Of a stretch of DNA of 49,791 nt, positions 9,218-46,595 are shown one piece after another. A program made the translations under genes and the position numbers. The DNA lies in assembly GCA_009772895.1 (NCBI GenBank), contig WOUP01000022.1, positions 1-49,791 on the forward strand, read 5' to 3'. The number at the start of each line of letters is the position of its first letter. Position 1 is the stretch's first letter. Below the pieces are notes generated by a model, which saw only the letters and a program-made list of their open reading frames with translations, did not search any database and was not told the origin of the DNA. This DNA is from Puniceicoccaceae bacterium 5H. Its GTDB lineage: Bacteria > Verrucomicrobiota > Verrucomicrobiia > Opitutales > Oceanipulchritudinaceae.

Positions 9218-9997
9218 ATGATGCGGCGACTAATGGACGCTGCCACCATGATTCCGTTTCTGAAGCACCTCAGCGCCGAGAGCGCCAAGGTGATCAACCC
9301 GCTCTTCTTCAATCCCGACCTGCAGGTCGAGTGGAAGGAAGACAACACCCCGGTGACCTACGCCGACAAGAAGGCCGAAGAGGTCCTGCGGGAGCTGATC
9401 ACCAAGGAGTTCCCCGACCACGGTATCGTCGGCGAGGAGTTTCCGAACGTTAACGAAGACGCCGAATACAGCTGGGTGCTCGACCCGATCGACGGCACGC
9501 GCTCGTTTGCCGCCGGCACGCCGCACTTCGGCACGCTCATCTGCCTGCGCCACAACAAGCAGCCCATCTGGGGCGTGATCAACGTCTGCGCGCTCGACCG
9601 CCTCTACATCGGCAACAACGAGCAGTGCTGGATGAATGATCGACCGGTGAAGATGCGCGAAACCAAGGACTTGAGCAAGTGCTTCCTGCTCACGACCGAT
9701 CCGAAGCGTCCCTACCTGCACCACAGCATCGAGGGCTGGAACAACCTGCTCGCCGCGACCGATCAATATCGTAGCTGGGGCGATTGCTTTGGCTACACCA
9801 TGCTCGCCAGCGGTGGCGCCGACATCATGTGCGACCCCAAGATGAGCCTGTGGGACATGGCCGCGCTGCTGCCCGTCGTGCGCGGCGCCGGTGCCGCCGT
9901 CTCCAACTGGAACGGCAACGACCCGGTCGGCTCCGACAGCCTCGTCGTCGCGCACCCCCGCCACCACGCCCGGATCATCGAGATCCTGAACCCGTAA
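9218..9997 (+). CDS. hisN: Inositol-monophosphatase-family phosphatase (HisN-like histidinol phosphatase)
   Basis: This 259-residue Mg2+-dependent phosphatase has all the metal motifs of the family: GEEF (Glu73, Glu74), DPIDGT (Asp89, Asp92) and WDMAALLP (Asp213). The stretches DNTPVTYADKKAEEVLRELI and FPDHGIVGEEF resemble HisN-type histidinol-phosphate phosphatases more than classic inositol phosphatases. The start at 9218 (or the adjacent ATG 9221) follows GGGAG at 9210-9214; upstream ATG codons in this frame lie in the divergent promoter region. It is divergent from the dioxygenase operon and ends in a strong terminator. Other phosphomonoester substrates remain possible. Confidence 0.82.
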   Translation: MMRRLMDAATMIPFLKHLSAESAKVINPLFFNPDLQVEWKEDNTPVTYADKKAEEVLRELITKEFPDHGIVGEEFPNVNEDAEYSWVLDPIDGTRSFAAGTPHFGTLICLRHNKQPIWGVINVCALDRLYIGNNEQCWMNDRPVKMRETKDLSKCFLLTTDPKRPYLHHSIEGWNNLLAATDQYRSWGDCFGYTMLASGGADIMCDPKMSLWDMAALLPVVRGAGAAVSNWNGNDPVGSDSLVVAHPRHHARIIEILNP

Positions 9998-10023
9998 TTA
10001 TTTACACCAGATTTACCTTTCGG

Positions 10024-10055
10024 GCGCGATTCCAAGACGGAATCGCGCTTTTTTT
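10024..10055 (+). terminator. Rho-independent terminator
   Basis: A perfect 10-bp stem (GCGCGATTCC at 10024-10033, GGAATCGCGC at 10039-10048) with a 5-base loop is followed by seven T. It closes the HisN-like gene. Confidence 0.9.
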
Positions 10056-10204: not shown

Positions 10205-12406
10205 ATGAGTATCGCACGTAAACTATTTCTCGTCCTCGGCATCAGCATCCTCGGTTTAGGGGGTGTGCTGGCCCTCGGACGTTATACCCTCAAAAGCAAC
10301 CTTGAAGCATCCCGCTCACTGGTCGACGGCACCTACGCCCCCATCGTGGAGCGAGACTTGCCGAAACTGACGGAGCTGCGCAACGGCATCACGCTCTTGC
10401 TCAACGCCGACCGAGACGCCTATCAGGCCGAGCTCGCGCAGAGCCAGGCTGCCACCGCCCTCAACCCCGAAGAACTCCAGGCGCTTTTCGATACGGTGAC
10501 CGAAAACAGTGCCCAAGTCATGGAGCGCACCGAAAAAGCCAGCAACTCCTTCAGCGACGACATGCAGGAGACCTACGCCGCAATGCAGGCGCAGTATACC
10601 ACCTGGAAAAACCATTCCAGCGATCTGCTCGGCATCACCAGCGATCTGTTTGACCAAACGGCGCAATACCGGAAGGATCGCCAGCAGCTCTCGAAAATCG
10701 ACGGCGCGCTCAACAAAAGCCTGGAATCCTTGATCGCGCAGCATCAGGACGAGCCGGAGCTCGCCAATGCGTTTGCCGAGATCGAGCAGCAGCTGCTCCG
10801 GGCCAATGTAAGCCTGGGCGTCATGCTGCGCAGTCCCGATCCGGAAGCGGTCCAGCAGGCACGCAAGCTATTCGCCGAACAGACGGAGCAATTGCAAAAC
10901 CGTCTGGAAGCCTTGGGCGAACACCACCATGGCGACGCGGCCGATCCGCTCGCCAAAAGCCAGGGGCTGCTGACCCAGTGGCAGCAATATGGCACCAAGC
11001 TGAGCCACGCCGCGACCCAAAACCAGGACCTGACGGCACAACGCGAAGAGCTGGAGCAGCAGACCTCCCATGAATTTGCCGTGATGCGCGAGACGCTGGA
11101 CCAACTCGTCGGCTTCTTCGAAGAACAGATTGCCGCCAGCACGGAGGCCCTGGTGACCAAAAACGAACAGGCTCGGCAGACGCGCGCCGCCACCGAGGCT
11201 CATGCCCACCAAATGCTCATGATTTTCTACGCCATCGGCGCGGTGACGATCCTCGTGCTCGGCGGCTACCTGACGCTCGTCACCCTGAGCATCGTCAAGG
11301 CCCTGCGCGGTGCCATCGACCAACTGCGTGGCAGCAGCAACGAAGTCACGTCCGCCTCCGTGCAGTTGAGTTCGTCCAGCAACATGATGGCCGACGAAGC
11401 CTCCCAGCAGGCCGCTGCCCTGGAAGAGACGCTGGCCTCGCTGGAAGAAGTCAACGCCACCACCCACATGAATGCCGAGCACGCCCGCAATACCAGCGAC
11501 CGCGTGGAAGACATTCGCGGCAAGGTGACCAAGGGCTCCCAGCTGATGGAGACGATGCTCGATGCGATGCAGCGCATTCGCCAGAACTCCGACCAGACGG
11601 CCAGCGTGATGCGCACGATCGACGAGATCGCCTTTCAGACCAACCTGCTCGCCCTCAATGCCGCCGTCGAAGCGGCCCGGGCCGGAGAGGCCGGTCGTGG
11701 CTTCGCGGTGGTGGCCGAAGAGGTCCGCAACCTGGCCCAACGCAGCGCCGAGGCCGCCCGCTCTACCAGCGGCATGATCGAGACCTCGCACCAGACCGCC
11801 AAGCAGGGCGTGGACAGCAGCGAGCAACTGGCCGAGTTCCTGCGGGAACTGGGGGCCGAGATGGATCAGATCGTCCTGCTTTCCAACGAGGTGTCCACCG
11901 CCTCCAACGAGCAATCACAGGGCCTGCAACAGATCAGCACCGCCGCCTCCCAGATCGACCAGTCCACGCAGCGTAACGCCGCCACGGCGGAAGAAACGGC
12001 TAGCGCGAGCGAAGAGCTTTCCGAGCTGTCCACCCAACTCCAGGACATCGTGCACACCCTCAACCAGATGGTGAAGAGCGACAAGAGCGCACCTGCTCCT
12101 CAGCCCAAGGCCCATCAGGCCGCCCCAAAACAAGCGCAAGCGAAGCAGAAGCAGTCCGATCGCGGCTTCTTCCTCAATGCAGGCTACGAAGCCCCCAAGG
12201 CGCCCGCCAAGCCCGCGAACGGCCGCAACGGCCAACAAAACGGCAGCTTCCACGGCTACCCCAAGCTCAACGGGCACGCCCAAGTCAACGGCACCAACGG
12301 ACACGCGCAGAACGGTAAAATCAACGGACACGCCAACGGCTTCGAATCCTTCAATAGCCAAGGCCCCTCGATCGAACTGAACGACGACATGATCCAGTCT
12401 CACTAG
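10205..12406 (+). CDS. Methyl-accepting chemotaxis protein lacking a recognisable HAMP domain
   Basis: This 733-residue receptor spans the inner membrane and should signal to CheA/CheW. A first hydrophobic helix lies at about 7-25, a helical periplasmic sensor at 30-335 and a second helix at about 338-360. The signalling hairpin tip [20 protein letters not shown] begins at 474 and is canonical. Directly after the second helix comes the coiled-coil signalling region; I see no HAMP linker. The C-terminal 70 residues are rich in Asn, Gly and His (NGHAQ, TNGHAQ, INGHANG) and end without the usual CheR/CheB docking pentapeptide. The start follows AAGGAGAA at ideal spacing. The next gene starts 10 bases after the stop, so they are probably co-transcribed. 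The ligand is unknown. Confidence 0.88.
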
Positions 12407-12416
12407 GAATCCCCCC

Positions 12417-13079
12417 ATGCAACGCTATTACAAATTTGCCGCCGGCCTCCTGCTCGGCCTCATCGCCCCTGCCCTCCACGCCGCCGATACCCAGTTCTGG
12501 ACCGCATGGAACGTGGGCGAGTGGAAGTCCGGCAACTTCTCCACCAAGAGCCACTTCGAGAACCGTCACGCGGACGACCTCGACCTGATCTACGTCCGCT
12601 ACTCCCAGAAGTTCAACTACAAGCTCGACGATGTCTGGTCCCTCGGCCTGCACCCGGTCTACGAGACCTCGCGCGGCAGTGACGACTGGAAGGACACCTA
12701 CCGGCTCGACCTGGAGGCCACCACCAAGCTGAAGTTGACCGACCGCCTCGGCCTCAAACTGCGCCACCGCTACGAAGTCCGGCGCAAAGAGGGCAAGGGC
12801 AGCGAAGCCATGGATCGCGTCCGCCAGCAGGTCGCGCTCAGCTACAAGGCCAATTGGCTGCCTAGCATGACCTCGATCGGCATCGCCAACGAGTGGTTTT
12901 ACGAGATCGACAAGGAGCGCATCACGCTCGACCGGTTCTACCCGATCCAGATCGGCTTCCAGCCCAGCGACAGCTTCAAGACCACCGTCTACTACCTTTA
13001 TCAGAGCAATCGACAAGGATTAAGTGGTAACTGGAGTGGCACGCACATCATCGGCCTCTCCAGCAGCTTCAAGTTCTAG
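12417..13079 (+). CDS. DUF2490-like outer-membrane protein, paralogue 1 of 3
   Basis: The 220-residue protein has a Sec signal peptide (MQRYYKFAAGLLLGLIAPALHA) followed by alternating aromatic/polar beta-strand segments and a C-terminal Phe. That terminal residue is typical of beta-barrels inserted by the BAM complex. It resembles DUF2490 proteins, whose function is unknown. The motifs TQFWTAW, FENRHADDLDL, LRHRYEVRRKE and TTVYYLYQSNRQGLS recur in two paralogues downstream. It begins 10 bases after the chemoreceptor stop, suggesting one transcript, and ends at a terminator. Confidence 0.72.
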   Translation: MQRYYKFAAGLLLGLIAPALHAADTQFWTAWNVGEWKSGNFSTKSHFENRHADDLDLIYVRYSQKFNYKLDDVWSLGLHPVYETSRGSDDWKDTYRLDLEATTKLKLTDRLGLKLRHRYEVRRKEGKGSEAMDRVRQQVALSYKANWLPSMTSIGIANEWFYEIDKERITLDRFYPIQIGFQPSDSFKTTVYYLYQSNRQGLSGNWSGTHIIGLSSSFKF

Positions 13080-13092
13080 CGATATATGGGGT

Positions 13093-13123
13093 GGCCCCGT
13101 CCGACAGCGGGCGGGGCCTTTTT
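13093..13123 (+). terminator. Rho-independent terminator
   Basis: A 10-bp stem (GGCCCCGTCC at 13093-13102, GGGCGGGGCC at 13109-13118, with one T-G wobble) and a 6-base loop are followed by five T. It ends the chemoreceptor/paralogue 1 transcript, so paralogue 2 probably has its own promoter. Confidence 0.85.
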
Positions 13124-13136
13124 ATGCAGGCATACA

Positions 13137-13149
13137 TTAGATTTTCTAA
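13137..13149. promoter_or_regulatory. Short inverted repeat upstream of paralogue 2
   Basis: TTAGA and TCTAA form perfect 5-bp arms around TTT in an A+T-rich stretch between the terminator and the second paralogue. It may mark the promoter or operator of that gene; no clear -35/-10 pair was found. Confidence 0.2.
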
Positions 13150-13265
13150 TCAAACAACAACCGCGTCATACTAAAAACTGATCTACCTCATTAAGGACTG
13201 TTGCAGATAACGTCGCCGACCGAATTGGTCTTGTGAGTGACAATCTCGTAACACACACACTTCCG

Positions 13266-13925
13266 ATGCACCGCTACCTGCGCTTCATTCTCCTCCTGCT
13301 GACCGCGAGCCCTGCCCTGCTGCAGGCCGACTCCACGGCCTACTGGGCCGCCTGGGGCGTCGATGTCTGGAAAGGGGATCAGTTTTCCACCCGCACGAGC
13401 ACCGAAAACCGTCACGACGATGATTTCGACCTCGCCTACTTCCGCATCACGCAGGAGTTCTACTACAAGCCCAACGCGGTCTGGACGCTGGGCGTGATCC
13501 CGACCTACGAGTCGGTCCGCAGCGCGGGAGACTGGAAGGACATCTACCGGGTGAACCTGGAGGCATCTCCGACTTTCAAGCTGAGCGACAAGCTCTCCCT
13601 GAAACTGCGCAACTGGTACGAGATCCGCCGCAAGCAGGATATGGGCAGCAAGTCCTACGACCGCTTCCGGCAGCAAGTCGCCTTTACCTACGCCGCCGAC
13701 TGGCTGCCCGGGCTGACCTCCGTGTCTTGCTCCAATGAAGTGTTTTACGACTTCAATGCCGAACGTATCAATCAGGACCGGATCAACCCGCTGAAACTCA
13801 ACTTCAAGATCAACGATCGCTGCAAGACCTCGGTCTTTTATCTCTACCAGGCTCAGCGGGTCGGCCTGAGCGAAGACTGGACGGGCACGCACGTCATCGG
13901 CGCGTCCACCAGCTTCAATTTCTAA
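13266..13925 (+). CDS. DUF2490-like outer-membrane protein, paralogue 2 of 3
   Basis: This 219-residue paralogue starts at ATG 13266 with a signal peptide (MHRYLRFILLLLTASPALLQA). An in-frame GTG at 13233 would only add residues in front of it. TAYWAAW, TENRHDDDFDLAYF, LRNWYEIRRKQD and TSVFYLYQAQRVGLSEDW line up with the neighbours, and the protein ends in NF, a plausible BAM signal. Small differences (extra Cys residues in VSCSNEVFY and NDRCKTS) set it apart. A terminator precedes it and a 130-base gap follows, so it is probably transcribed independently. Function is unknown. Confidence 0.72.
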   Translation: MHRYLRFILLLLTASPALLQADSTAYWAAWGVDVWKGDQFSTRTSTENRHDDDFDLAYFRITQEFYYKPNAVWTLGVIPTYESVRSAGDWKDIYRVNLEASPTFKLSDKLSLKLRNWYEIRRKQDMGSKSYDRFRQQVAFTYAADWLPGLTSVSCSNEVFYDFNAERINQDRINPLKLNFKINDRCKTSVFYLYQAQRVGLSEDWTGTHVIGASTSFNF

Positions 13926-13955
13926 CGTTCCCCGCAACTGGGGCAACGTGGCCGG

Positions 13956-13980
13956 CCGCGACAAGCAACGCTTATCGCGG
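13956..13980. repeat. Imperfect hairpin after paralogue 2
   Basis: CCGCGACAAGC (13956-13966) pairs with GCTTATCGCGG (13970-13980) with a single mismatch and a 3-base loop. It lacks a T run, so it may be an RNA 3'-end stabiliser or weak attenuator between paralogues 2 and 3. Confidence 0.35.
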
Positions 13981-14057
13981 CACAACAGGTTACGAAAATG
14001 TGGCTAAAGTTAAAAAAGAAGTTGGCCGTAACATTTACGTAACCCATTTAAACCACG

Positions 14058-14717
14058 ATGTCTCGTAAAGTATTGACGACTCTTGGAGCTTTACTGGCTG
14101 GCTCGGCCAGTCTGCTCGCGGAACCCACCCAGTTCTGGGCGTCTTGGACCGTGGACGACTGGGCGAACGACAAGTTCTCCACCCAGACCAACGTCGAAAA
14201 CCGTCATGGCGACGGTTTTGACCTGATTTACTTCCGGGCGACCCAGAAGTTCTATTACGACTTGAACGATACCTGGACCCTCGGGGCCCACCCGGTCATC
14301 GAAACCGCCCGCAGCGGAGACGACTGGAGCGAAACCTACCAGCTGGACCTCGAAGTGAATCCAACCTTCAAGCTGAGCGACCGGCTCTCGCTCAAGGTGC
14401 GCAACCGCTATGAGGTCCGCCGCAAGGAGGACCATGGCGACGCGAATTACGACCGCTACCGCCTCCGCACCATTCTGAGCTACAAGGCCAACTGGCTGCC
14501 CGGCATGACCGCGATCAGCGTGGGCAACGAAGTCTACTACGATTTTTCGGCCGAGCGCATCAACGCCGACCGGATCTACCCGCTGCAGCTCTCCTTCAAG
14601 CCATCGGACCACTTCAAGACCACCGTCTACTATCTCTACGAGACCAAGCGGCAGGGGTTGAGTGAAGACTGGGAGGGCAAGCACGTTATCGGCCTTTCCA
14701 GCGGCTTCCAGTTCTAA
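14058..14717 (+). CDS. DUF2490-like outer-membrane protein, paralogue 3 of 3
   Basis: The 219-residue protein has a signal peptide (MSRKVLTTLGALLAGSASLLA), barrel-like strands and a C-terminal Phe. By eye it is the closest match to paralogue 1: TQFWASW, VENRHGDGFDLIYF, RNRYEVRRKED, SYKANWLPGMT and FKTTVYYLYETKRQGLSEDW. It ends at its own terminator and is convergent with the rhodanese/YceI gene. Retention of three diverged copies suggests different ligands or conditions rather than recent amplification. Function is unknown. Confidence 0.72.
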   Translation: MSRKVLTTLGALLAGSASLLAEPTQFWASWTVDDWANDKFSTQTNVENRHGDGFDLIYFRATQKFYYDLNDTWTLGAHPVIETARSGDDWSETYQLDLEVNPTFKLSDRLSLKVRNRYEVRRKEDHGDANYDRYRLRTILSYKANWLPGMTAISVGNEVYYDFSAERINADRIYPLQLSFKPSDHFKTTVYYLYETKRQGLSEDWEGKHVIGLSSGFQF

Positions 14718-14725
14718 CCGCCTCG

Positions 14726-14752
14726 AGCCCCGCCACCACGCGGGGCTTTTTT
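14726..14752 (+). terminator. Rho-independent terminator
   Basis: A perfect 8-bp stem (AGCCCCGC at 14726-14733, GCGGGGCT at 14740-14747) with a 6-base loop is followed by a T run. It closes paralogue 3. Confidence 0.9.
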
Positions 14753-18559: not shown

Positions 18560-19426
18560 TTACTGCAGGCGGCGCAGGCGTTCCTGTCGCTCGGATTCGA
18601 TCAGCGGCAGCAGATCGGCCTCGCTCAGAACCTCCGCCAGATCATCGCTGAAGAGGAAGCGCAGCAACTCTTTGCCCTCGCTCGTGGAAGCAAAATCGCG
18701 GCGGTAGACGAGGTAGAAGGGCAGTTGCAGCGGGTAGTCGCCATAGAGGGCGTTCTCCGGGCTGGGCGAAAAGGCGCGGTCACTATTCCCCTCGGCCACC
18801 GGCACGGCGCGCAGGCTCTCGGGCAGGCGTGTGGTGGGGATGATCGCGAGCACGTTGAGGTTGTCGTGCGTCTCGTTCACGAAAGCATCGAGCGAAGGGT
18901 GGCTCTTCACGCCGCTGCGCATTTCCCGGTCTCCCAGCACCTCGACCTTGAAGATCTCCTGCCCGACCGTATTGGTGCCGCCGACCACGTGCTGCGAAAG
19001 CTTGCGCACCGACCACGCGCCGCCCTCGTCCACAAACGCGTCCCAGGACTCGGCCACGCCGTCGCGCCCAAAGGCTTCGATCAGGTCGTTGTAGCTCATT
19101 TCCGTCACCGGGTTGTCGCGGTGCACGGCCACGACCGTGACCAGAAAGGCGAAGGGGCTGGACTCGAGGTCTTGCGGCGGACGCTCGCCCCGGGGCAGCG
19201 CGACCAGGGCCAGCGGGGCGTCGCCGCTTTCGACCGCTTCAAGCGCGGGGTTGCTGCCTTGCATATCCAGCTCGACCGGCACCCCGCTGTCTGCACTGAA
19301 TTGCTGCAACGCGTCCTGCAGCACAGGCTGGAGCAGGTCGCTGCCGACGAGGGTCAGACCGAAGGCGTGGGGCAAGGCGGCCGCGGTAAAAACGGCACAG
19401 GCAAGGAGAGAACGCAGAGAAGACAT
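18560..19426 (-). CDS. Periplasmic phosphate-binding-like (PstS-type) protein
   Basis: The 288-residue exported protein has a signal peptide (MSSLRSLLACAVFTAAALPHAFG) and then the PBP-like fold: LTLVGSDLLQPVLQDALQQF, later VVAVHRDNPVTEMSYNDLIEAF and VVGGTNTVGQEIF. The latter is where PstS proteins coordinate phosphate. No permease genes accompany it, so it is probably not a transport component. It is last in the polysaccharide operon, 69 bases after the tyrosine kinase. Such stand-alone proteins can act as sensors or scaffold parts. ATG 19435 is an alternative start. Confidence 0.72.
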   Translation of the reverse strand: MSSLRSLLACAVFTAAALPHAFGLTLVGSDLLQPVLQDALQQFSADSGVPVELDMQGSNPALEAVESGDAPLALVALPRGERPPQDLESSPFAFLVTVVAVHRDNPVTEMSYNDLIEAFGRDGVAESWDAFVDEGGAWSVRKLSQHVVGGTNTVGQEIFKVEVLGDREMRSGVKSHPSLDAFVNETHDNLNVLAIIPTTRLPESLRAVPVAEGNSDRAFSPSPENALYGDYPLQLPFYLVYRRDFASTSEGKELLRFLFSDDLAEVLSEADLLPLIESERQERLRRLQ

Positions 19427-19495
19427 GGCTGGCATAGGCAAGAAGTGAGACGTGCACGCTAGAAGTGCCCATGCCCGCTTGGCAAGCCTTGCCAC

Positions 19496-44385: not shown

Positions 44386-45423
44386 TCAGCCCTGGCTCCA
44401 GCTGTCACGGCGTCGTAATCCCACCCACAGCATTCCGGCAAGGCCGAAGAGCAGAGCCGAGGCGCCGGCTTCGGGCACGCCAGCCATGGGTGGCGCCAGC
44501 TCGAGCACCGAGGCATAGAGCATCTCCAGTTCGTAGGTCGAATAGGTCCCGCCCCACTCCATGGTGTGGGTCTCCGTGTCCCAGGTGTCGTAGACCTCGA
44601 TCAGCTCGGTTTCTTCGTCGTAGCCGACGCCCAGGATCGTGTGCCCATCCAGCCCAAGCAACACGGGGCGACCCGCGTCGATTTCCGCCTCGTAGTCCAG
44701 CAGCGTAAAGCCACCGCTATAGCCTGCGGCAGCCACCTGGGAGTCGACGTCCATCGTATAGAGGCTGGCGACGCTGTATCCCGCCCACTCAATGTAATCT
44801 TCGAGGCCACACAGGCCGCTATTTGCCTCCAGGCCATAGTCGCGAACGATGTCGGTGGAGAGGGCCCGACCATCGTGAAACGAATAGAACAGGGTTTCTC
44901 CATTTACAGCGCCGGCACTGTCCTGGCTGGTGTGCATGAAGTCGGCGAGGCAGTCGAAGCTGCGCGTCGTGGCCAGATCGTCGCCGGATTCGTCGTAGCC
45001 AAAACCGATGTCGCCACTGGTATTGTAGCCGTAGGTCGTCGCATTGTAGAAATCGCGTTGGTGCCCTTCGCTGGCAATCGCCCGGCGCAAGATCGCACTG
45101 TCTGCCGACCACTGGCCCGAGACGCCGACCTCGGCCACGCCCCCGGGGATGAGGTTGGCGTAGGCATAGCCGTTGTAGCCGTTGCGGTCGTAGTAGCCCA
45201 GCAACATGCCCGCAGAGGTCGGCGCGCAGCCATACCACCAGTCGGTGGACGCGGTATTTCCCAGCGAGCCGCCGGTCCGGTAAGTTTGCACATCCCCGGT
45301 CCACGACGCGTCGGCCAGATAGGCGTAGGATGCGCAGGCGGAAGACACCAGTGAGAGCATGAAGCCACCGGCGAGCTGGGCCGCACGACCGCGTCGCAAG
45401 AGAAAACAGGGGAGGAGTCGCAT
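44386..45423 (-). CDS. Secreted C39-like cysteine peptidase with PEP-CTERM-like tail, copy A
   Basis: The 345-residue protein has a signal peptide and a papain-like C39-type core. The probable nucleophile Cys66 lies in DWWYGCAPTSAGMLLGYYDRN, the catalytic His261 in GRPVLLGLDGHTILGVGYD, with an acidic residue near 279 (VYDTWD). The C-terminus is VPEAG (316-320), a hydrophobic helix, and RRR (337-339), a PEP-CTERM-like sorting signal used by exosortases in Gram-negative bacteria. A close paralogue of identical length lies directly upstream. The upstream 52-bp block is shared with copy B. The substrate is unknown. Confidence 0.75.
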   Translation of the reverse strand: MRLLPCFLLRRGRAAQLAGGFMLSLVSSACASYAYLADASWTGDVQTYRTGGSLGNTASTDWWYGCAPTSAGMLLGYYDRNGYNGYAYANLIPGGVAEVGVSGQWSADSAILRRAIASEGHQRDFYNATTYGYNTSGDIGFGYDESGDDLATTRSFDCLADFMHTSQDSAGAVNGETLFYSFHDGRALSTDIVRDYGLEANSGLCGLEDYIEWAGYSVASLYTMDVDSQVAAAGYSGGFTLLDYEAEIDAGRPVLLGLDGHTILGVGYDEETELIEVYDTWDTETHTMEWGGTYSTYELEMLYASVLELAPPMAGVPEAGASALLFGLAGMLWVGLRRRDSWSQG

Positions 45424-45471
45424 GGCTCCTCAACTCGGTCCCGCTGCCGCCCCCTTTAGGGGACTCACAAC

Positions 45472-45523
45472 ATATAAGCCCTTGAAGTCCAGTTAGTCCT
45501 GAAGGTGATCACCCAAATTAGCG
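45472..45523 (-). promoter_or_regulatory. Duplicated 52-bp upstream element, copy A
   Basis: This block upstream of copy A matches 46645-46696 at 43 of 52 positions by eye. It includes CCAGTTAGTCC and the perfect palindrome GGTGATCACC (45504-45513), and a TTATAT-like -10 lies at its gene-proximal end. The far end keeps TTAGCG, matching the stop region of the 198-residue gene, which suggests the duplication carried part of that gene. Confidence 0.5.
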
Positions 45524-45557
45524 CCCGTCGCCATTCCCAATGGCCGGGAGCACACCA

Positions 45558-46595
45558 TCAACCTCTGTTGGACGCGCAACGGCGACGGGCACCCGTCCAC
45601 AGCATCCCGACGAGGCCGAAGAGCAGAGCCGAAGCGCCGGCTTCAGGCACGGAAACGTTGGGCGGAGCCAGCTCCAGCACCGAGGCAAAGACCATCTCGT
45701 ATTCATCCGGCGAATAGATACCGCCCCATTCCATGGTATGAGTCTCCGTATCCCACGTGTCGTAGATCTCGATCAGGTCGGTTCCTTCGTCATAGCCCAC
45801 GCCCAAAACCATATGCCCGTTGAGCCCGAGCAACACCGGACGGCCTGCATCGATTTCTGCCTCGTAATCCAGCAGCGTAAAGCCACCGCTATGACCGTTG
45901 GCGGCCACATAGGAATCAATACTCTCTGTATAGAGGCTGGCAACGCTGTATCCCGTCCACTCAATGTAATCCTCGATGCCGCAGAGGCCGCTGGGGGACT
46001 GCCCGCGGTATTCGCGAATCGCATCCACCGGGTAGACCAGGCCTCCCATATCCCATGCAAACGTGGTGCCCCCATTCGGGTGGCCCACGCTGTCCTGGCT
46101 GGTGAGCATGAAGTCGGCGATGCAGTCAAAGCTACGGTTCGTAGACAAATCGTCGCCGGATTCGCCGAAACCATAGCCAATCCCGCCACCGGTGTTGTAG
46201 CCGTAGGTCGCCGCATTGTAGAAATCGCGTTGGTGCCCTTCGCTGGCGATCGCCCGGCGCAAGATCGCGCTGTCTGCCGACCACTGGCCCGACACGCCGA
46301 CCTCGGCCACGCCCCCGGGGATGAGGTTGTCGTAAGCATAGCCGTTGTAGCCGTTGCGGTCGTAGTAGCCCAGCAACATGCCCACCGAGGTCGGCGCACA
46401 GCCATACCACCAGTCGGAGGACGCGGTGTTGTCCAGCGAGCCGCCGATTTGAGCCGTCTGAACGCTGCCAGGCCAGGTAGCGCCAGACGAATATGGATCG
46501 AACGCACGGACCGAAGACACGAGCGTGAGCAGGAGGCCACCGGCAAACAGACCCGCACCGCAACGTCGCGAGAGAAAACAAGGGAGGAGTCGCAT
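45558..46595 (-). CDS. Secreted C39-like cysteine peptidase with PEP-CTERM-like tail, copy B
   Basis: The 345-residue paralogue of copy A has the same layout: signal peptide, Cys66 in DWWYGCAPTSVGMLLGYYDRN, His261 in GLNGHMVLGVGYD, and VPEAG, helix and RRR at the C-terminus. The middle (IREYRGQSPSGLCGIEDYIEW) differs most, while the catalytic flanks are nearly identical. The peptidases probably act at the cell surface or after exosortase release. The upstream block 46645-46696 is shared with copy A and overlaps the end of the 198-residue gene. Confidence 0.75.
   Translation of the reverse strand: MRLLPCFLSRRCGAGLFAGGLLLTLVSSVRAFDPYSSGATWPGSVQTAQIGGSLDNTASSDWWYGCAPTSVGMLLGYYDRNGYNGYAYDNLIPGGVAEVGVSGQWSADSAILRRAIASEGHQRDFYNAATYGYNTGGGIGYGFGESGDDLSTNRSFDCIADFMLTSQDSVGHPNGGTTFAWDMGGLVYPVDAIREYRGQSPSGLCGIEDYIEWTGYSVASLYTESIDSYVAANGHSGGFTLLDYEAEIDAGRPVLLGLNGHMVLGVGYDEGTDLIEIYDTWDTETHTMEWGGIYSPDEYEMVFASVLELAPPNVSVPEAGASALLFGLVGMLWTGARRRCASNRG

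Follow-up and report, generated by a model that had tools for sequence, protein, structure and literature searches.

Why does the gene for a chemoreceptor with no recognizable HAMP domain stand 10 bases ahead of a gene for an outer-membrane barrel protein? The locus that raises this question lies in a 49,791-nucleotide stretch of Puniceicoccaceae bacterium 5H, referred to here as the window, which is the entire 49.8-kb contig WOUP01000022.1 of a 4.10-Mb genome. It consists of one gene for a methyl-accepting chemotaxis protein (MCP) and three genes for paralogous barrel proteins of the DUF2490 family. The answer we favour, with modest confidence, is that the receptor gene and the first barrel gene form a two-gene operon pairing a chemoreceptor with a porin for a probably anionic solute that is sensed in the periplasm. 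The solute that the DUF2490 porin would let across the outer membrane is small and probably anionic (phosphate, an organic acid or an acidic sugar), and the predicted helical bimodular (HBM) sensor of the receptor would detect it in the periplasm, either directly or via a binding protein. The signal would then run through the second transmembrane helix (TM2) straight into the signalling coiled coil, with no HAMP domain in between. The arrangement itself is real and is found again in some related loci, though a minority of them. Its parts are of known kinds; what is new is that one sensor family is paired with barrels from different families.

All features of the locus lie on the forward strand. 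A terminator-like hairpin (10022-10050; -20.2 kcal/mol, z -4.67) is located downstream of a HisN-like gene (9248-9997) and upstream of the receptor gene (10205-12406), whose 733-residue product matches MCPsignal (PF00015) at 140.9 bits (E 4.7e-41), above the cut-off of 34.6 bits. The first barrel gene (12417-13079) begins after the 10-base gap, and the junction contains neither a terminator-like hairpin nor other structure (folding z 0.4). The first-pass annotation of the window had described this junction correctly, together with the two further paralogues downstream (13266-13925 and 14058-14717). The listed open reading frame (ORF) of the second paralogue begins at a GTG at 13233, and the start at 13266 agrees with the other paralogues. 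All three proteins exceed the Pfam cut-off of 29.8 bits for DUF2490 (PF10677), with scores of 48.1, 47.2 and 46.1 bits, and their pairwise identities are 52-56%.

A strong terminator-like hairpin with a T-tract (13093-13118; -26.6 kcal/mol, z -4.68) directly follows the first barrel gene, and for this reason the second and third barrel genes probably lie outside the transcription unit of the receptor. A single four-gene operon was rejected on the same ground, with the proviso that some read-through may occur. Folding is predicted as well for the stretch between the second and third barrel genes (-27.6 kcal/mol, z -2.3), which has no T-tract, and a further terminator-like hairpin follows the third gene (14725-14748; -19.4 kcal/mol, z -3.46). 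Since terminator-like matches across the whole region are no more frequent than in shuffled sequences (5 versus 5.3), the argument rests on the folding energies, T-tracts and positions of the hairpins. In a congener (G016), the corresponding locus consists of a hairpin, the receptor gene, a 9-base gap, a DUF2490 gene, a hairpin and a second DUF2490 gene. From the hairpin positions and this congener layout, the transcription unit is probably the receptor plus the first barrel gene, which would be co-transcribed, and the second and third barrels, proteins of like kind, are probably expressed separately. A sequence scan of the region found no sigma-70-like promoter, and no conserved block was seen when the DNA upstream of the receptor was aligned with that of the congener. 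A candidate PHO box ahead of the receptor gene was considered as well and was dropped, as its half-sites, judged by eye, do not have the usual spacing.

The periplasmic sensor occupies approximately residues 28-336 of the receptor (10286-11212; ends set by eye). Its structural model has a predicted local distance difference test score (pLDDT) of 87 and consists of six helices in two stacked four-helix modules. In a Foldseek search with this model, chains of TorS take ranks 1-5, with McpZ, McpS (rank 9) and PilJ lower. The alignment with TorS reaches Z 19.1 and 2.2 Å over 229 residues at 12% identity, while McpS reaches Z 15.2 and the unrelated TTYH3 Z 15.8 in the same list. Helical bundles can attain Z values of about 13 with the structure-comparison tool through their common arrangement, and the TorS match exceeds both this level and all unrelated rows. 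The sensor is thus predicted to have an HBM fold that is closest to TorS. A search of PDB sequences with a profile of the sensor returned no relative and no solved HBM chain, so the match indicates a shared fold and does not demonstrate homology. Pfam includes an HBM model, and no HBM family was among the matches in a Pfam scan of the receptor at E<=1. Within the sensor, the motif NADRDAYQ (residues 67-74) and residues Q104, R108 and W134 are nearly invariant among relatives. The motif or a close variant occurs twice in 16 of the 19 relatives in alignment A7 and once in the window receptor. The congener's sensor has 193 residues versus 309 in the window, 116 fewer, and most of its second module is missing. 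The same sensor is also found, by reading, on a 1122-residue histidine kinase-like hybrid protein in another genome (G001 L151:4961-8329).

Beyond TM2 (approximately residues 337-363, by eye; 11213-11293), sequence and alignment place the signalling coiled coil directly, with no HAMP domain before it. The Pfam scan at E<=1 gave no HAMP match in the window receptor, which bears out the earlier description of a receptor with no HAMP linker. Approximately 69 residues separate the end of TM2 (by eye) from the MCPsignal match, versus approximately 116 residues from the start of HAMP to the start of that match in the HAMP-bearing relative L154, a difference of about one HAMP domain. This absence was nevertheless rejected as a remarkable trait, because only 2 of the 17 chemoreceptors of this genome have a HAMP match over the Pfam cut-off (with L022 and L023 scanned from loci cut at their 5' ends), and the absence is therefore the rule. 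One of the two is an ammonium transporter fused to HAMP and the MCP signalling domain (L248:2919-5129; G000:C34), and an additional weak HAMP match of 22 residues is present in L019. The CheA, CheW, CheR and CheB genes of this genome adjoin a HAMP-bearing receptor (L020). Elsewhere in the genome, four tandem sCache_2 chemoreceptors have no HAMP match, and three of them carry similar terminal ELSFLKRH stretches (L242:3616-10743; G000:C22).

Among receptors with the same sensor as the window receptor, HAMP is found in 0 of 11 members of one set and 15 of 18 members of the other, with HAMP_2 in 1 of the 18. These two sets had been sorted beforehand, mostly by eye (L226 by Pfam scan), so the counts describe the sets and do not test the division. 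In a maximum-likelihood tree of 27 receptors, ten HAMP-less receptors fall into one clade (support 100/99) that extends across Verrucomicrobiota and Planctomycetota. The tree is rooted at the midpoint and has several long branches, which makes the outer placement of those rows unsure. L153 and L168 were removed before the tree was built, and L167 was removed for its broken receptor frame. Loci L159, L160, L170, L177, L179, L182 and L184-L186 are not in alignments A7, A9 and A10.

At its C-terminus, the window receptor carries the Asn/Gly/His-rich tail that the first-pass annotation had pointed out (12210-12364), which includes the motif GFESFN (12338-12355). This motif aligns with C-terminal GFDEFN or DFMDFN of relatives, and the congener's receptor ends in IETF. 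Enterobacterial receptors carry a C-terminal pentapeptide, and by analogy the flexible stretch may serve as an arm that tethers adaptation enzymes. An FF motif recurs in the flexible tails of L007, L013 and L018 of this genome and of the window receptor, and is perhaps a docking site for adaptation enzymes. Neither a HAMP-less chemoreceptor nor a receptor-porin operon was described in the titles and abstract starts covered by a literature search in which subscription journals are thinly represented. HAMP-less histidine kinases are discussed in the available text of PMC8199190.

The model of the first barrel protein has a pLDDT of 72, with two of the five models above 70 and three at about 35. 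It resembles OmpG (Z 16.7), CymA and NanC/KdgM (Z 12.7 for NanC). The model has 11 listed strands at this pLDDT, versus 12-14 in monomeric porins of the OmpG/NanC type, and its 220 residues leave no periplasmic domain over. The KdgM family (PF06178) matches barrels 1 and 3 at 17.7 and 14.6 bits, under the cut-off of 22, and is not listed for barrel 2. A sequence search against PDB chains gave no meaningful relative of the barrel. The 75 presumed lumen residues include 17-19 Lys or Arg versus 9-13 Asp or Glu across the three paralogues, and because the basic residues outnumber the acidic ones, the modelled lumen hints at a preference for anions. DUF2490 itself is classified as a putative porin family, TC (Transporter Classification) 1.B.81, whose functions are not established in the available text of PMC4827864.

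The neighbourhoods of DUF2490 genes in general were surveyed in 54 DUF2490-bearing stretches (51 plus L066, L067 and L069), for which one match list was complete outside the window and the other extended down to E 2.5e-8; some contigs end nearby. A chemoreceptor is near DUF2490 in two of these stretches, from G016 and G019. In G019, the DUF2490 gene is followed after 28 bases by a HAMP-bearing receptor of TarH/4HB type that is not orthologous to the window receptor. DUF2490 as a general chemoreceptor partner was therefore rejected. Elsewhere, by reading, these genes have varied neighbours, for example recA/trmE, a DASS-like anion transporter and pstS. In G001 (L069:4872-7861), by reading, two DUF2490 genes, one of them confirmed by Pfam, stand on either side of a pstS-like gene and a small ORF, with pst-like transporter genes adjoining, a context that points to a phosphate-related role for some members of the family. 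A scan of genome contigs with barrel alignment A2 gave no matches. HBM sensors with known signals respond mostly to organic acids, or to phosphate through PstS, in the available text of PMC5126104 and PMC6321045. These signals, the pstS-like context and the lumen charge were counted in favour of the receptor-porin reading with its probably anionic solute.

The proposed recurrence of chemoreceptor-DUF2490 adjacency is thus rare, and what recurs instead, in a minority of loci, is the same sensor family beside barrels of different families. Immediate same-strand barrel neighbours were examined in 36 named loci with the same sensor, using gene calls from our own scripts, the first of which were misled by antisense ORFs in GC-rich loci (L162 and L164). 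Porin_5 is such a neighbour in 4 of the 36, all in Planctomycetota and in both gene orders, following the receptor in L161 and L167 and preceding it in L162 and L164. The receptor frame of L167 is split into two overlapping ORFs (464-2564) by a frameshift that is either genuine or a sequencing error, and its porin gene stands after the second of them. Every Porin_5 match in each of the four draft genomes lies in the single ORF that neighbours the receptor, and the genomes hold 4, 9, 5 and 3 MCPsignal matches. By our own arithmetic at approximately one gene per kb, the chance of a given gene adjoining an MCP gene is well below 1% per genome. A survey of 347 genomes of the same class found the sensor at E<=1e-15 in 14 genomes, most of which were already in the 36-locus set. 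In G687, a genome new to the set, two HAMP-bearing receptors flank a Gcw_chp-like barrel (23.3 bits; cut-off 24); these receptors are the last two members of a four-ORF run with the chemoreceptor motif (L226:486-9226). The porin label applies to 6 of the 27 tree rows, including G687, and requires three changes on the tree. In Rheinheimera L180, an OMP_b-brl gene lies about 510 bases downstream behind a small opposite-strand ORF. In G595, the sensor and a single Porin_5 gene are on separate contigs, and the porin gene has no visible receptor neighbour.

Within the genome of the window, reading of the gene calls for the other 16 receptors, on 13 stretches, showed no barrel as an immediate same-strand neighbour. 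The L248 receptor has a convergent OMP_b-brl gene. A gene of the phosphate-selective porin family Porin_O_P is located about 2 kb downstream of a HAMP-less receptor on the same strand, with other genes between (L247:1130-6768; G000:C9). In two genera, the gene just upstream of a HAMP-less chemoreceptor encodes a small protein with a TonB_C domain (L236:3117-3638 in this genome and G003 L070:8292-8834), another envelope-related partner of a receptor.

Several observations weigh against a receptor and porin that serve one solute. Porin function is not established for DUF2490 in the available text of PMC4827864, the barrel model is of medium confidence only, and the lumen charge count is a heuristic. 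The McpS score of the sensor is no higher than that of unrelated helical proteins such as TTYH3. Few DUF2490 genes have a chemoreceptor nearby (2 of 54 stretches), and 32 of the 36 same-sensor loci, as called, have no immediate same-strand barrel; a dedicated porin is therefore no requirement. The 23 neighbours of these 32 loci that were scanned with Pfam (L165, L182, L169 and 20 others, a few of them small ORFs that may not be genes) include no barrel; the remaining neighbours were judged by reading, with some loci truncated or lacking a gene call (e.g. L160 and L177). The four Planctomycetota cases are not independent; the porin-first loci L162 and L164 are near-copies, which leaves approximately two lineages with Porin_5 linkage, and the three changes on the tree could be gains or losses. 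The loci with no barrel, like the varied neighbours of DUF2490 genes elsewhere, would fit shared regulation with no shared ligand. The barrel would then be a general or structural outer-membrane protein, expressed alongside the receptor since one growth state requires both. We regard this explanation as unlikely but deserving of serious weight. Shared regulation alone predicts neither the different barrel families beside this sensor family, with their three changes on the tree, nor the occurrence of both gene orders in Planctomycetota.

A periplasmic binding protein could also act between solute and receptor, as TorT does for TorS and PstS for CtpL, with the porin only feeding that binding protein. 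The best fold match of the sensor, TorS, was solved together with TorT, the HBM receptor CtpL is driven by PstS (PMC6321045), and a PBP_like_2 protein is encoded at 18560-19495 in the window. No binding-protein gene was seen in the window unit or the congener unit, however, and ligands bind directly to the sensor of McpS (PMC5126104), which leaves this route rather improbable. Contact or signalling between receptor and barrel across the periplasm is a different matter, and we judge it very improbable. The genes are close together, and by helix length the modelled sensor would reach approximately 135 Å into the periplasm (91 residues x 1.5 Å, our own arithmetic), but the 220-residue barrel model offers no periplasmic domain to meet it. 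Direct contact is unlikely because the partner barrel family changes between lineages and because the congener keeps its barrel gene with a sensor shorter by more than a third. The outer-to-inner-membrane sensing module that the first-pass annotation had proposed thus finds no support as a physical assembly. Its other suggestion, that the barrels bind or admit the ligand of the receptor, stands in part: admission is plausible and is the best reading, with co-transcription limited to the first barrel. That annotation had named the lack of linkage in other genomes, or a clear HAMP hit with independent promoters, as results that would count against it, and neither was found in full: the linkage recurs and no HAMP match appeared, but the second and third paralogues stand behind a terminator-like hairpin.

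The paired receptor and porin can be compared with several known systems. McpS, McpK and CtpL, like the window receptor, combine a periplasmic sensor of HBM fold (predicted here) with an MCP signalling domain. The window receptor differs in having no HAMP match, no sensor sequence match to solved HBM chains and an adjoining barrel gene; we know of no barrel gene beside those for McpS, McpK or CtpL. TorS, the sensor kinase for trimethylamine N-oxide that acts with TorT, has the closest fold to the window sensor, but it is a kinase working through a binding protein, and the two share 12% identity. The monomeric porins KdgM/NanC and OmpG have a fold like that of the barrel 1 model, and barrels 1 and 3 show the weak KdgM sequence match, which differs from true membership in scoring under the Pfam cut-off, whereas all three barrels pass that for the DUF2490 putative porins. 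Pseudomonas putida, in which alkL and alkN presumably lie close together, likewise has a predicted receptor and an outer-membrane protein for one substrate class. There, alkN encodes a predicted chemoreceptor and alkL an outer-membrane protein postulated for uptake (PMC3664771), but the substrate is hydrophobic, the genes belong to a catabolic set and the protein families are others. Apart from the locus under study, the window also encodes two adjoining, very similar secreted-looking proteins of 345 residues (44386-46595), an apparent tandem duplication.

At the level of the family, we tentatively suggest that a clade of HAMP-less helical bimodular chemoreceptors in Verrucomicrobiota and Planctomycetota may repeatedly have acquired a porin gene within its operon or nearby (DUF2490 or Porin_5, and for one HAMP-bearing relative a Gcw_chp-like barrel); ligand entry through the outer membrane and its detection would then be inherited as one unit. 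The occurrence of the same sensor with and without HAMP in nature offers a ready comparison for the role of HAMP in transmembrane signalling. Models of chemotaxis usually take the outer membrane as freely passable. If the recurrent receptor-porin pair is true, it would make port-limited sensing testable, point to functions for the DUF2490 and Porin_5 barrels and offer a way towards the ligand of an orphan sensor family.

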